DNA of 64,000 nucleotides from Lacipirellulaceae bacterium (GTDB lineage: Bacteria > Planctomycetota > Planctomycetia > Pirellulales > Lacipirellulaceae), in the NCBI GenBank assembly GCA_040218535.1, contig JAVJRG010000005.1, positions 372,001 through 436,000 of the forward strand. The letters are read 5' to 3'. Shown here piece by piece: positions 12,683 through 45,457 of the stretch (position 1 is the stretch's first letter; every line of letters starts with the position of its first letter). The position numbers and the translations under genes are program-made. The notes under the pieces were generated by a model. The model was not told the origin of the DNA. It saw nothing but the letters and a program-made list of their open reading frames with translations, and did not search any database.

Positions 12683-13732
12683 GTGCCCGAACATGTCGTC
12701 ATCATTGGTAGCGGTCCCGCCGGTTGGTGTGCGGCCATCTATGCCGCGCGAGCAAGCTTAAAACCGCTAGTGTTTGAAGGAGCCGTCACGGAGGAGAATC
12801 GCCAGGATGGCACGCTGCCTTTGGGGCAACTGGCGCTGACCACGGAAGTCGAGAATTATCCCGGCTTCCCTGCTGGTGATTTAAGCTCGTACTTGAAGAG
12901 CTCGCTCGATGAGCAGCATCACTATCTTGCCGACATGCACCAAAAAGAAGGAGCCAGCGGCCCCGAGCTAATGCACCTGATGCGTCAGCAAGCGGCGAAC
13001 TTTGGCACCCGCATCGAAACGGAAGACATCGTCGAAGTTGATTTCGAGAACCGGCCTTTCAAGTTGAAGTCTTCTGGCGGGAAAGAAGTCGAAGCCCACG
13101 CGGTAATCATCGCCACGGGTGCTCGTGCGAATTACCTAGGGCTCCCATCCGAAGATGCCTATAAAAATCGAGGCATCAGCGCTTGTGCCGTTTGTGATGG
13201 GGCGCTTCCCCGGTTCCGCAACAACCCACTGGTCGTCGTTGGTGGAGGTGACTCGGCTTGTGAGGAAGCGGACTATCTCGCAAAGTTCGCCAGCAAGGTT
13301 TATCAGGTGCATCGTCGCGATGAACTGCGGGCCTCCAAAGTCATGGCTGATCGCGTGTTGGAGAACGAAAAGATCGAGCTCGTTTGGAATAGCGAAGTGG
13401 ACGAGGTCCTCGGCACCGACGACGATGGCGTCACCGGAGTCCGGGTGAAGTCGACCGTCGATGATTCGACACGCGAACTGGAAGCTTCCGGTATGTTCCT
13501 TGCCATCGGTCACACGCCGAACACGCGGTTTCTCGAAGGCAAGTTGGAGATGAACGATAAACATTACCTCAAGTGGACCGTTCCCTTCCGCACGAATACA
13601 AGCGTCGAAGGCGTTTTTGCCGCCGGTGACGTGGCTGACGACTACTACCGCCAGGCAGTAACCGCAGCCGGGACAGGCTGCATGGCGGCGCTCGATGCCG
13701 AGCGTTGGTTGGGGGCCCAAGGGATTTCGTAA
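12683..13732 (+). CDS. trxB: Thioredoxin-disulfide reductase
   Basis: TrxB transfers electrons from NADPH through FAD to thioredoxin. The N-terminal FAD motif is [16 protein letters not shown], the redox pair is C168/C171 in CAVCDGA, the NADPH motif is [10 protein letters not shown] and the C-terminal FAD motif is [10 protein letters not shown]. Start is GTG at 12683, giving [11 protein letters not shown]. Compared with the usual 310-320 residues it is 349 long, with about 30 extra residues before the PELMHLM helix (about 75-105). No thioredoxin gene is adjacent. Confidence 0.95.
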
Positions 13733-37766: not shown

Positions 37767-39365
37767 CTAATCCCACCACCAATTGATTCCAGCGTCATCG
37801 GGACGTTCAGCAAGCTCCGCCAGCGAGCCGCTCGACTCAGCCTGCACGTTCACACGCTTGCCAGCGTCGATCCAGACGCCACCGCTAACACCGGCGATGA
37901 TATGCTTCCGTCGGATAACACGGTGATTGATGACGGTCTCCACCGCTTGGGGAGTTTTAACCGCTGGCAGGCCCATCCGCCGTCCGTCGACGAACACCGT
38001 GGGTGTCCAGCCGATTTGCTCCACGAGTCCCTGGGAGCGGATCACCTCGAGCGTCATCGACAGCTCAAAAAGTCGTTCTAGCTCTGCATAAAGAGGATAC
38101 TTATCGGCCAGTGTCGAGTAATGCTTGGTAAACGACTCGGCAAACCGCCGATTCAACTCGTCCGACTGCCCCGTGTGAACCCGTTGCCCACGGGCAGCGA
38201 GCAGTTCGTTCTCGCTAAGCACCTGGACACAGGTGTCAGGCAGCATGAAGACGTTGTTCTCTTGGTCAGCGAGAATATCGCTCTCCTTTAGAGAAAACCA
38301 CCAGCGGAGAATGCTCATCGGCGGAGCCGTTCCGTCTGCCGCGAGCTTGACAGTATCCAGATAGCTTTCGACTCCCGGCACGCCTTCGGCAAGACCCATG
38401 CCGACGAGTTTCATATGATAGTCAGCCAGCAAGAGCAACCGAGCAACGCGCGAGTTTGGCTCAACGTGATAAAACTCGACATCTTGTTCGCCCAAACTAT
38501 CACGCAGCCCCTTGAGCCAATCACCACGCCCCCCAGCCGCTAGCGGCTTAGCCCCAGTTTGCGCCAAATAGGCTTGCGTCTTCGCCAGCGCTTCCTGTCG
38601 CGGAACAATCGAACACCCCAGTGGTTTCCCACGATAAGCGACCTCTCGACGCCAGAGCGAAAGCAGATCGTCCAACCGCACGACGGGCCGCCCTGACTCT
38701 GCATTGACCAATCGCCCACCCTCATCAATCTGCCAGTCGCCCGCGGGACCAGCGACGACCACGTCGCCAACTTTGTTTTCTTCCGTTGGTGGGTACGTGA
38801 TCACGTACTGAACTCGCTCAAGCCCAGCAAGTGTAAGCATCGACTCCTCCAACGGAAGCTTCTCACGCTGGCGGCGTGCAATCTCTGCCTCCAGTCTTGG
38901 GAGCGAGACGAAGCGAAGCTCGCTTTTCTGCCGTGGGTCTGCTTCGGAAGCAGACGGTTCTCTTGGCGATGGTGGCCTCCTCACCGATACGCTCGCAAGC
39001 AGGGCTTTCGTCTTCGCCGGCGAAAACTTCAAGCTACCCCGCGCATCGACCCAAACGCCATTGATGTTGAACGGCGCGATGCTTCCTTCACCAGTACCGT
39101 TGTCCTCCCAGGAGTCGGGCTCAACGGTCGATTGGATGAGATCAATTAGGGTGTCGAAGTCTGCGTTAGCCGCACCGCCCGCGTTATTACCGCCGAGAAG
39201 ATTTCCTCCGAAGTTGTTGTTCTGTACGCCACCTGGGCCGGCATTGGCTGGGGGGATTCCTTGTTGGAGTCCCCCAGGCTGAGCATACGACGTGCTGGTG
39301 AGAAGTAGAGCGAGTACGATGGCGCTGCAGCCGCGCACCATTCCACAGAAGGATAAAGGCTTCAT
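37767..39365 (-). CDS. Secreted planctomycete-type protein of unknown function
   Basis: A 532-residue exported protein. Signal peptide residues 1-28 (cleavage near SYA-QP), then a Gly/Asn-rich low-complexity stretch (about 30-66) with GGN repeats, then a folded region. It resembles DUF1598-type planctomycete proteins, from memory of the family. The start of the folded part is DFDTLIDLIQSTVEPDSWED. A 14-bp perfect palindrome (38535-38548) typical of the gene-end repeats lies inside the coding sequence and encodes KPLAA. The gene has its own upstream spacer of 430 bp. No catalytic motif seen; function unknown. Confidence 0.75.
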   Translation of the reverse strand: MKPLSFCGMVRGCSAIVLALLLTSTSYAQPGGLQQGIPPANAGPGGVQNNNFGGNLLGGNNAGGAANADFDTLIDLIQSTVEPDSWEDNGTGEGSIAPFNINGVWVDARGSLKFSPAKTKALLASVSVRRPPSPREPSASEADPRQKSELRFVSLPRLEAEIARRQREKLPLEESMLTLAGLERVQYVITYPPTEENKVGDVVVAGPAGDWQIDEGGRLVNAESGRPVVRLDDLLSLWRREVAYRGKPLGCSIVPRQEALAKTQAYLAQTGAKPLAAGGRGDWLKGLRDSLGEQDVEFYHVEPNSRVARLLLLADYHMKLVGMGLAEGVPGVESYLDTVKLAADGTAPPMSILRWWFSLKESDILADQENNVFMLPDTCVQVLSENELLAARGQRVHTGQSDELNRRFAESFTKHYSTLADKYPLYAELERLFELSMTLEVIRSQGLVEQIGWTPTVFVDGRRMGLPAVKTPQAVETVINHRVIRRKHIIAGVSGGVWIDAGKRVNVQAESSGSLAELAERPDDAGINWWWD

Positions 39366-39501
39366 GACGAGGGTTCTCCACTGTTCCGAAGTAAGCGAGG
39401 TTCCAGACCCGCCTACGATACCCTCAATATTGCGGAGTTGCCGTCAGGTGTCCAGCAGAAGCCAATTTCAAGGGTGGTTAGCGTCTTGGCAGCTCTTTCT
39501 A

Positions 39502-39613
39502 AGCCACGAATTAAACGAATAACACGATTACTTTGTGTTTGAATAGATGCTGCTTTGCGTGCTTGAAAACGTAGTAGGAATTCCTATTCGTGCTATTCGT
39601 TCAATTCGTGGTT
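39502..39613. repeat. Inverted repeat, CACGAATTRAACGAATARCACGA family
   Basis: Arms 39502-39528 (GCCACGAATTAAACGAATAA core) and 39585-39613 (TTCGTGCTATTCGTTCAATT core) are reverse complements with a few mismatches, around a 56-bp interior. AT-rich, unlike the other palindromes. Known-looking extragenic repeat; no adjacent transposase. Confidence 0.75.
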
Positions 39614-39648
39614 CAATTCTTACGCATGCGGTTCCGGCTGTAAGGCGC

Positions 39649-39692
39649 AAAAAAAAGACGACCCACACGCTGATGACGCGTGTCGGTCGTCT
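39649..39692 (-). terminator. Intrinsic terminator of the Cys-rich gene
   Basis: AAGACGACC (39655-39663) pairs with GGTCGTCTT (39684-39692), with inner CACACGC/GCGTGT pairing. On the minus strand the hairpin is followed by eight T residues (complement of the A-run at 39649-39656). It lies about 110 bp after the stop of the Cys-rich gene. Confidence 0.85.
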
Positions 39693-39797
39693 TAGTCGTT
39701 TAACGTCTTGAGAACCCTGCCCGTTCTCTTTGGGCTACTAGCACTGGGGCATTTTGCTAGTCAATTAGTTCAACTGGGGCAACTTGTTGAACTAATC

Positions 39798-40409
39798 TCA
39801 GTTGCAGCCACAGCTAGGGGCAGCACATCCGCAGCTTGGCTCGCAAGCAGCAGCGCAACCGCAGCTTGCTTCGCAGCAAGGAGCACAGCAGCACTTTGCA
39901 GCCTTGCGGGCAGCACGGCGAGCGCGAATACGATCGCACAGGCTTGGCTTGCAGCAGCATGTCTCGCAGCAAGGAGCAGCGCAACCGCAGGAAGGCTCGC
40001 AACCGCAGTCAGAAGCACATCCGCAGCTTGGCTCACAAGCAGCAGCACAACCGCAGGAAGGCTCACATGCCGAAGCGCAACCACAGCTTGGCTCGCAGCA
40101 GCTTGAGGCACAGCAGCAGTTACGGGCAGCACGGCGGGCAGCCATACGAGCACGCAACCGAGCGCAGAGACCTTGACGCTTGCAGCAGCAAGGATCACAG
40201 CAGCTTACTTCACAGCCACAATCAGTGGCACATCCACAGCTTGGTTCACAAGCAGCAGCGCAACCGCAGCTTGGCTCACAGGCCGAAGCACAGCCGCAGC
40301 TAGGCTCACAGCCGCAACCGCCACCGAACAGGCCAAACGCACTTGCGTTGGTAGCGCTGCTCATCGCGATCACGAGGCCGAGGCCCAGCGTCGAAACTAG
40401 ATTCTTCAT
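39798..40409 (-). CDS. Secreted Cys-rich repeat protein (CEPSCGCA repeats)
   Basis: A 203-residue exported protein of unknown function and extreme composition: by hand count about 53 Cys (26%). ATG 40409 has AAGGAG 8 bp upstream and gives a signal peptide (residues 1-24, cleavage near NASA-FG). The mature part alternates Cys-rich blocks, made of CEPSCGCA-type 8-residue repeats, with two short Arg/Ala helices (RLRARMAARRAARN and RIRARRAARKAAK). The blocks form two units of about 70 residues, each ending in CCC clusters. There is no lipobox. The tightly repeated DNA produces false Gln/Ser/Ala-rich frames on the plus strand. It could be a disulfide-linked envelope protein or a metal-binding one. 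Confidence 0.75.
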   Translation of the reverse strand: MKNLVSTLGLGLVIAMSSATNASAFGLFGGGCGCEPSCGCASACEPSCGCAAACEPSCGCATDCGCEVSCCDPCCCKRQGLCARLRARMAARRAARNCCCASSCCEPSCGCASACEPSCGCAAACEPSCGCASDCGCEPSCGCAAPCCETCCCKPSLCDRIRARRAARKAAKCCCAPCCEASCGCAAACEPSCGCAAPSCGCN

Positions 40410-40802
40410 CGGGTAACTCCTTAAGGAAGGGGGAAACTGTGTTGCCATCGTTGGCATGCCTTGCGTCTCGCCTGCGCCTAGTTGGGGGAGTGCGCCAGAA
40501 CGATCATCGCAACGCAAGAGCAGCCAGCCACGACGGCTAACGCTCCATTGGATATGGGGAGGAATCGTCACCCTAAAGAGAAAACCTTCACCACATTTGC
40601 CTTTTTGCCCTACCGGTAAGGTTGCCCAAGTCACCCTGTAACGATTGTGCGAATCGCAGCGAGTTGGCCTCTAGGTTTCGCCGCGGGGCTTGCCCCGCGC
40701 TTGCTGAGAGTTCACGCCAAGCGCGGAGCAAGCTCCGCGGCGAAACGTGCAGGAGTGACCTATATTTCTCTTATCCTTCAATTGAAATGCAGCGATGCCG
40801 CC
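40410..40802. other. 393-bp spacer between Cys-rich and Hpt genes
   Basis: Divergent gene starts at both ends. Apart from the 40675-40746 palindrome I see no gene, no RNA and no clear promoter hexamers. In-frame upstream extensions of both flanking genes run into it but lack protein character. Confidence 0.5.
40675..40746. repeat. Inverted repeat, GTTTCGCCGCGG family
   Basis: Arms 40675-40702 and 40719-40746 are reverse complements (core TTCGCCGCGGRGCTTGCYCC) with two mismatches that still allow pairing. The 16-bp loop contains nothing notable. It lies just upstream of the Hpt gene, so it would be in the leader of that transcript or the shared divergent region. Confidence 0.8.
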
Positions 40803-43996: not shown

Positions 43997-45457
43997 CTAC
44001 TCGTCGGCAGTTCCTTCTGATTCTTCAGAGTCGGGGCTGCCAATCGTCACCGCGTCGAGACGTTTTTCGTGGTCTTTGAGCACTTGCTCATACTCTTCCT
44101 TTTCCTTCTTTGCCAAATCTTCACCATCGAGCGTCGCCTTAATGACGGAGATCAACTCGTCGGGCGTGCGATGGGCACCGATGCGGATGTACTGCAGGCG
44201 GCCCTCTTTGTCGAGCAGCAGCGTCGTTGGACTGACACGCACCTTCAAGTTGATGTACGCACTCGAAGTGGTGTCACGCAGGATGGGCATCTCGGTGCCC
44301 CATTGCTTGAGCGTCTTTTCGATCGTCTCGTTGGCCACACTCGCCCGATCAGTGTTCACCGCATAGAAGGCGACGTCCTCGTCCTTTAGTTCCTGATAGA
44401 CCTCTTCAAGCACAGGCGTTTGCGTCTTGCAGTTGGGGCAGGCAAGGAACCAAACGTCGAGCAGCGTTGGCTTGCCTTTCAGCGTGTCGCGCGTGACCTT
44501 CTTGCCGTCGAACGTCTGGAACTCGAAGTCTTTCACTTGCTCACCCAAGAAGTCCGGCGGGCCAACCGGTGGAGGCGGCACAAATTGGGAAACACGACGT
44601 GCCTCTTCCGGCACATTCATCTCGAAAGCACTCTCATTAATGGCTACGTCCAAGGCTTGGTCGGTATAGCTCACCCAAAACTTCGAAGCGGTCAGCGGAT
44701 AGCGAGCCGCAACCGGGTCGTAGAGGTTGCCCATCGGGAGTTCCATCCGATGTAGAAAATAGGTTTCCGCGTCGATCCACAAGACGCGCTGTCCCGCGGG
44801 TGATTCGTAGGCAACGCGGTAGCAATCACGACCGTCGAGTTTCTCTCTCCCTAAACGCGAGGGTTTTCCATCACCGACAAAGAATGGGGCTGTCTCCTCA
44901 GGACTTTCTCCGTTTGGTTCGTTCCCCAAGAGCATTGTGAATTGCGGGTGATTCTCGCCCTCGGGGAGAACGCTCTCCAAGGCTTCCCGTAGCTGCGGCT
45001 CTGGGGCTAAGTTGCTAGGCGTCAGTTCCTCGGGAGCCTCGGCTTCAAAGACTTGGTTGGGGAAGTAGCCGGTTGCTGCTCGATAGATCTCTCCATCGCA
45101 GACCAAGTTCAGCTGGGTGCCGTCTGGTACGGCATCAGACATGGCTTCGTACGAATACCGCAGTCGATTCGGCCTTCTGAACGCCATCGAGAGAATCTCG
45201 TGCGAGACTTCATGCTCGACCCCCTCACCCTTCACAACGTAGTACTGGACAGTTTCCGCATTGCACGAGAAAGACTTGGCGGCCCCGTAAACCTCTCGCA
45301 TTTTCTTAACGACTTCTGCAGCAGGCGGCCCGGTGAGCCTTTTTTTCCCTTTCGAGCTTGCTGGTCCCGAGCTTGGGCCTTGCGTGCAGCCACTCGCTGA
45401 AATGGCTATTAAAGTGAGCCAATAACCGAATGCCTGACGAAATCGTTGGGAAGTCAT
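43997..45457 (-). CDS. Lipoprotein with LolA-like and thioredoxin-like domains
   Basis: A 486-residue exported lipoprotein: hydrophobic signal with lipobox SASGC (C24), then an alpha/beta region (about 45-305) rich in beta strands that resembles LolA/DUF2092-type folds (e.g. FRRPNRLRYSYEAMSDAV), then a TlpA-type thioredoxin domain (about 305-450) with active-site C340/C343 in CPNC. It ends in an acidic Glu/Ser tail (about 455-486). The combination suggests a membrane-tethered thiol-disulfide enzyme that binds a hydrophobic ligand, but the function is inferred. Confidence 0.8.
   Translation of the reverse strand: MTSQRFRQAFGYWLTLIAISASGCTQGPSSGPASSKGKKRLTGPPAAEVVKKMREVYGAAKSFSCNAETVQYYVVKGEGVEHEVSHEILSMAFRRPNRLRYSYEAMSDAVPDGTQLNLVCDGEIYRAATGYFPNQVFEAEAPEELTPSNLAPEPQLREALESVLPEGENHPQFTMLLGNEPNGESPEETAPFFVGDGKPSRLGREKLDGRDCYRVAYESPAGQRVLWIDAETYFLHRMELPMGNLYDPVAARYPLTASKFWVSYTDQALDVAINESAFEMNVPEEARRVSQFVPPPPVGPPDFLGEQVKDFEFQTFDGKKVTRDTLKGKPTLLDVWFLACPNCKTQTPVLEEVYQELKDEDVAFYAVNTDRASVANETIEKTLKQWGTEMPILRDTTSSAYINLKVRVSPTTLLLDKEGRLQYIRIGAHRTPDELISVIKATLDGEDLAKKEKEEYEQVLKDHEKRLDAVTIGSPDSEESEGTADE

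Follow-up and report, generated by a model that had tools for sequence, protein, structure and literature searches.

A widespread cysteine-repeat protein family of Pirellulales with a possible role in a disulfide-linked envelope or matrix

The gene on the minus strand at 39798–40409 of the 64,000-nucleotide stretch analysed here (the window) encodes a member of a cysteine-repeat protein family that is apparently unnamed, widespread, and commonest in the order Pirellulales. Members of this family combine an export-type N terminus with acidic Cys-rich blocks that alternate with basic Cys-poor segments. The original prediction had left an envelope network, a metal sink, and an adhesive open, and of these we favor a cross-linked envelope or matrix. 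We propose, with about even confidence, that the window protein is an envelope or matrix protein that associates with itself, is cross-linked by disulfides, and functions in the manner of the high-sulfur keratin-associated proteins, which act by disulfide cross-linking.

Repeat anatomy and coding character of the gene

The coding sequence and the parts of its product are as follows.

39798–40409, minus strand: coding sequence of 203 aa with 53 Cys, a type A member, supported by homologues
40338–40409, minus strand: probable signal peptide, residues 1–24, with cleavage after ASA, by inspection
40182–40337, minus strand: Cys-rich block 1, residues 25–76 (52 aa), net charge −6
40116–40181, minus strand: basic segment 1, predicted helix, residues 77–98 (22 aa), net charge +8
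39951–40115, minus strand: Cys-rich block 2, residues 99–153 (55 aa), net charge −6
39891–39950, minus strand: basic segment 2, predicted helix, residues 154–173 (20 aa), net charge +7
39801–39890, minus strand: Cys-rich block 3, residues 174–203 (30 aa), net charge −2

Cysteine makes up 26% of the window protein (53/203 aa), which matches the fraction of about one quarter given by the original prediction, and Tyr, Trp, and His are absent. Among the 39 stop-to-stop frames of at least 250 aa in the window, the frame of this gene was the outlier in Cys content (19.3% with the upstream readthrough included; next frame, 2.8%). The Cys blocks are strings of 10-residue CEPSCGCAxx units, and the sequence contains 12 adjacent Cys pairs. 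CGC occurred 13 times versus 1.6 in shuffles, EPSC 8 times versus 0.02, and Cys pairs at a distance of 10 residues 28 times versus 14.6 (0/5000 shuffles as high in each case), and no enrichment was observed for an 11-residue Cys period (12 versus 14.6 in shuffles). The protein is laid out as two modules of 74–75 residues, each consisting of a Cys block and a basic segment, and a third Cys block of 30 residues. The CEPSCGCA-type units in two modules of roughly 70 residues that had been described from the first reading were thus recovered, with the third block in addition, and the 30-bp DNA repeats within the gene bear out the repetitive DNA. The Arg/Ala helices of that reading correspond to two segments set between the three Cys-rich blocks, "helix" being an AlphaFold prediction only. 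The mature chain is near-neutral (16 K+R versus 15 D+E), and all of its Lys and Arg residues are confined to the basic segments. The N terminus is of the export type and carries no twin-Arg motif; the signal peptide, which had been expected at this position, is predicted by eye plus a simple rule.

In the AlphaFold model of the window protein, helices were placed at residues 77–97 and 157–172 with block-mean pLDDT values of 51–77 (overall mean, 45.9), and little or no fold was found outside these two helices. The model of a type B relative, folded as a single chain, showed nothing reliable (mean pLDDT <46). Amphipathic membrane-docking helices were rejected for the window protein, with moments of 0.08–0.09 that lie below those of shuffles, and membrane docking is unsupported for this protein because its helices are not amphipathic. 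Among the 16 segments tested, only those of L045, L053, and L061 were under 5% of shuffles.

Differences between the window gene and its Adhaeretor mobilis orthologue at codon positions 1, 2, and 3 numbered 24, 16, and 59, and dN was 0.106 and dS 0.579 (dN/dS ~0.18); as judged from this sequence comparison, selection on the gene is purifying. A non-coding artefact, in which repetitive DNA carries a chance frame, draws on the further frames that are open across the same repeats, but it is contradicted by this substitution pattern and by a frame, start, and Shine-Dalgarno sequence kept over many genera, and its probability is negligible. The regex count of units was 11 in the window protein and 14 in the A. 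mobilis orthologue, and in 16/38 genes the modules within the gene were closer to each other in DNA than to their best counterpart in other genes. Both observations are in line with the repeat copy-number variation that the original prediction had guessed.

Distribution and architecture of the family

Profile matches, with type A and type B counted alike, were found in 42/43 genomes of the family Lacipirellulaceae (source genome included), in 28/28 of its good genomes, and in 14/14 genera. The original prediction had been staked on homologues with a conserved frame and signal peptide, and such homologues were present in these 42 genomes, with the frame and N terminus kept and a low dN/dS. In the order-level sample, 215/396 genomes and 151/252 good genomes matched, and 181/396 and 101/252, respectively, gave no match with no more than eight candidates scored per genome. 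With a wider profile, the class-level sample yielded matches in 129/397 genomes (102 within the order, 27 from other orders), and a phylum-wide draw yielded 15/392 (13 within the order, one from the rest of the class, and one weak match outside the class). Because at most eight first-look candidates were scored per genome in the order, class, and phylum searches, the absences in them are soft. The scan of 84,980 species genomes returned 21 loci, and every record was a planctomycete by name. Four matches outside the order were inspected: L088 and L091 had the same architecture, L090 was a looser relative, and L089 contained no Cys-rich frame by the filter. In another family of the order, one locus (L094, G108:C14:50000-65000) carries two short Cys-repeat genes ~10 kb apart on the minus strand (2443–2919 and 12733–13365), and their APEPTCC units are reminiscent of keratin-associated repeats.

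The member set comprised 72 picked proteins, of which 57 were distinct after overlap between the collections was removed. Members were split into types A and B by a tail regex, by which L073 was placed in type A and may be a tailed form. Type A contained 42 distinct members, 38 of them 160–226 aa long, and two basic segments were found in 29/42 by a counter. Type B contained 15 distinct members of 268–383 aa with three or four basic segments in 13/15, and its C-terminal end is a conserved tail around PPAPxxDPxA...RxVVxxSFxR, which could serve as a sorting or docking signal. By the first profile, the source genome has one type A gene and one type B gene.

G000:C12:1,363,780–1,364,340: type B paralogue in the source genome, 383 aa with 109 Cys, from the first profile

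The locus of this paralogue (L092, G000:C12:1357000-1371000) has nadA and a PQQ-like beta-propeller gene nearby.

The export-type N-terminus rule was passed by 56/56 other distinct members, whose starts were partly picked by such a rule, as member start codons were set by a scoring rule that counted a hydrophobic stretch. The charge alternation held in both types: net charges of +2 or more were found in 81/89 Cys-poor segments of type A and 44/49 of type B, and charges of −1 or less in 123/125 and 57/59 Cys blocks, respectively. The sequence of the basic segments drifts across members, from LRARRAARKAAK through LKGLFKRHH to LLDKLFGKK, with the positive charge retained. The Cys fraction of type A averaged 24% (range, 14–29%) and was kept across genera, and the spacing and unit number varied; cysteine that is kept while spacing and unit number vary suggests a low-complexity material more than a precisely folded protein. 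The number of Cys in the mature chain was even in 24 and odd in 18 type A members, and even in 12 and odd in 3 type B members.

Expression signals and genomic neighbourhood

Four candidate expression signals were located around the gene.

40417–40422, minus strand: Shine-Dalgarno sequence AAGGAG, 7 bases before the ATG
39649–39693, minus strand: intrinsic terminator, folding better than 200/200 shuffles (z −4.14)
40468–40503, minus strand: leader hairpin showing compensatory changes in an alignment of 21 leaders
40563–40591, minus strand: two-box promoter-like element GTGAAG-N16-GACGATT

The good ribosome site and the separate terminator of the first reading were both confirmed by the AAGGAG at 40422–40417 and the z-score of the terminator, and from its sequence the gene is likely expressed. 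High expression was not supported by codon bias. The codon adaptation of the gene was 0.677, rank 31 among 48 window ORFs (random recodings: mean 0.620, maximum 0.721), relative to a reference of all non-overlapping minus-strand ORFs around the ribosomal cluster, some non-ribosomal frames included.

The leader statistics refer to 21 of the 42 type A members, picked because their upstream DNA aligned by eye. Across these 21 chosen leaders, the 10-pair hairpin was formed in 98.1% of alignment cells, and sliding of the partner lowered pairing to 24–55%. Cells changed on both sides numbered 19 versus 6.3 in shuffles (0/500 as high), and pairs with double changes numbered four, which is not above shuffles (145/500 as high); the hairpin was predicted on the same alignment that was used for counting, and kinship of the sequences inflates such tests. 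The folding of the complete 179-nt leader is only mildly better than that of shuffles (z −2.0; 4/200 as good), and the RNA claim therefore rests on the single covarying hairpin. A covariance model of the leader found the gene's own leader, which is part of the model, at E 1e-19 in the source genome, and the next match at 0.13. On 34 loci outside the model, it gave eight matches at E ≤ 1, which included 4/4 held-out members of the 21; weaker matches to three further type A leaders lay directly before the starts at L052 (7e-7), L048 (0.007), and L065 (0.47), and the match at L054 (0.037) lay elsewhere, not directly before the start. No Rfam match was found anywhere in the window.

The two boxes are spaced by exactly 16 nt in the aligned leaders (loose form, 20/21; strict form GTSAAG-N16-GWCGATW, 14/21), and the second box begins 149–175 nt 5′ of the ATG. 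The remaining 21 type A leaders contained one loose and no strict match, type B leaders contained the element in 0/15 cases, and the loose pattern occurred in 0.05% of 10,500 shuffles. The element does not fit the sigma-70 consensus and is a putative promoter. A shared regulon was rejected, as the strict pattern had three matches in the source genome versus two in the reversed control.

The neighbours of the window gene encode a DUF1598 protein with an export-type N terminus, a VTT-domain protein, ApbE, an Hpt protein, phosphoglycerate kinase, and a redoxin lipoprotein. Homologous neighbours recur at 7 to 11 of 18 loci (several of which have short flanks), and because of this recurrence the locus looks vertically inherited, as far as gene order can indicate. 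The DUF1598 gene (37767–39365), whose product is a possible partner, lies downstream in the same orientation, and frames homologous to it occur near the Cys-repeat gene in 9/18 loci. Two repeat families flank the gene on either side. Between the gene and the divergent Hpt neighbour, a palindromic repeat at 40670–40750 (GTTTCGCCGCGG...CCGCGGCGAAAC) resembles a REP or MITE-like element and has 41 matches in its own genome at E ≤ 0.01, with the query included and many palindromes counted on both strands. Downstream of the gene, a second inverted repeat at 39495–39630 has 30 matches in its own genome, with the query included and the rest short.

Proposed function and alternative explanations

In the mechanism that we propose, the unfolded chain would leave the cytoplasm by the Sec route and its signal peptide would be removed. 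The thiols of the CEPSCGCA units would then be oxidized within and between chains in the oxidizing space outside the inner membrane, and a VKOR-domain protein encoded in the source genome could form these disulfides. Because the Cys blocks (−6, −6, and −2) and the basic segments (+8 and +7) are oppositely charged, the chains would attract each other, and anionic surface polymers or lipid A may offer the basic segments a further docking site. Finally, disulfides would fix the assembly as an envelope or matrix network, which the conserved C-terminal tail of the longer type B paralogue could tie to another part of the envelope. The features counted for this mechanism were the export-type N terminus, the charge alternation, the retained Cys with varying spacing and unit number, the lack of a predicted fold outside the helices, the VKOR domain, the distribution, and the published descriptions of a disulfide-bonded protein sacculus (PMC2754498) and of Cys-rich YTV proteins in wall preparations (PMC8567305); presence in 28/28 good genomes of the family, together with the recurring neighbours, is consistent with vertical inheritance and a housekeeping function. 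Counted against it were the lack of a Pfam DsbA match in the source genome, a CxC/CC-rich and nearly aromatic-free sequence that also suits metal binding, the non-amphipathic window helices, the unremarkable codon adaptation, and the 181/396 order genomes without a match.

Searches against Pfam, NCBIfam, and PDB returned no match for the window protein, and the 15 type B members had no match in Pfam and NCBIfam. The Pfam scan of 22 type A members found only five weak families, each in one or two members. Short Cys-Pro-rich repeats are shared with the keratin-associated proteins of the Pfam Keratin_B2 group, and Keratin_B2_2 matched 2/22 type A members weakly (best E, 0.0056), which may be compositional; in contrast to those proteins, the present family is bacterial and has an export-type N terminus and alternating basic segments, and no Pfam keratin high-sulfur model matched the window protein at E ≤ 1. 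The chlamydial OmcA/OmcB proteins, from a relative within the PVC superphylum, are Cys-rich, exported, and part of a disulfide network, and Pfam models for them exist. The present family resembles them in being Cys-rich and probably exported but differs in that no Pfam match to them was obtained for the window protein, the 22 type A members, or the 15 type B members. The strings EPSCGC, CCEPSC, and CEPSCG had a sole match in the open literature (5.39 million papers, subscription papers mostly outside), which is unrelated by its title, and topical searches of literature with the same coverage gave nothing on the cysteine-repeat family among the matches listed.

The main rival is an exported metallothionein-like sink, in which Cu, Zn, or Cd would be bound by CxC and CC thiolates at the cell surface or within the periplasm and the basic segments would be an anchor only. 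Metallothioneins are comparable to the window protein in Cys fraction and CxC/CC motifs, and the 26% Cys, 13 CGC, 12 adjacent Cys pairs, few aromatics, and lack of a confident fold all suit metal binding. The redoxin lipoprotein gene (43997–45457) has a match to SCO1/SenC, among whose members are copper chaperones (E 1.8e-6, weaker than its AhpC-TSA match), and CopD matched 1/22 type A members weakly (E 0.025). However, the window protein is longer than metallothioneins, has an export-type N terminus, alternates in charge, and contains no His; metallothionein models matched neither the window protein (Pfam and NCBIfam), nor the 22 type A members (Pfam), nor the 15 type B members (both), and the window protein and type B are without any family match in these two collections. 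Sec-type export would also bring the thiols into the space that holds the VKOR-domain protein, and, the SCO1-like cross-match aside, the six neighbour proteins tested had no match to a metal transporter or sensor family. We consider a metal sink unlikely.

Adhaeretor mobilis cells are embedded in a thick extracellular matrix and joined by thick appendages (excerpt of PMC8303584), and since a thick connective matrix is produced by this relative, the protein may reside in such a matrix. The same matrix and appendages, together with the charge-block architecture, could also speak for an adhesive or matrix protein beyond the outer membrane, whose basic segments would bind anionic polysaccharide and whose disulfides would cure the glue. 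Passage beyond the outer membrane would nevertheless be hypothetical, and 0/6 neighbour proteins tested belonged to a secretion or polysaccharide family, so that we regard an adhesive as distinctly unlikely. A secreted cationic antimicrobial or host-active peptide, comparable to Cys-rich defensins, would account for basic helices that are amphipathic in the relatives L045, L053, and L061, but it is very improbable given the long and near-neutral mature chain, the presence in 42/43 family genomes, and the absence of any resemblance to an immunity gene among the six neighbours tested.

Returning to the cross-linked envelope or matrix protein, a more specific form is that the family is a main component of the disulfide-bonded protein sacculus described for Pirella-type planctomycetes in early chemical studies, a block polyampholyte dosed by a dedicated promoter and an RNA hairpin, in which the acidic Cys blocks would attract the basic segments and disulfides would lock the network. 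The planctomycete wall has been described as a protein sacculus with disulfide bonds, after work of 1986 (excerpt of PMC2754498). We hold this sacculus role to be a tentative and rather doubtful possibility. YTV-domain Cys-rich proteins have been reported in planctomycete wall preparations (excerpt of PMC8567305), and the YTV proteins of Hieu 2008 and Mahajan 2020, as cited in excerpts of PMC8567305 and PMC10632474, were detected in preparations of the wall or suggested to determine how rigid it is. The YTV-domain wall proteins of Planctomycetia are similar to the present family in being planctomycete and Cys-rich but differ in their YTV string, which was found in none of 57 members (42 type A and 15 type B), and the window member contains no Tyr. 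We know of no detection of the present family in wall preparations.

The composition of the planctomycete envelope has long been disputed, and descriptions of a disulfide-bonded protein wall are older than the finding of peptidoglycan. In the excerpts of the texts consulted (PMC8567305 and PMC10632474), YTV proteins are the sole Cys-rich wall component put forward. The family described here would stand beside the YTV proteins as a second, apparently unnamed Cys-rich family whose repeats are simple in anatomy, whose leader is conserved, and whose assembly rule can be tested. A cysteine-repeat protein of this kind is perhaps a template for a self-assembling, redox-curable protein material. If the sacculus role is true, the family would be a bacterial counterpart of the keratin-associated proteins and would be independent of the YTV proteins.
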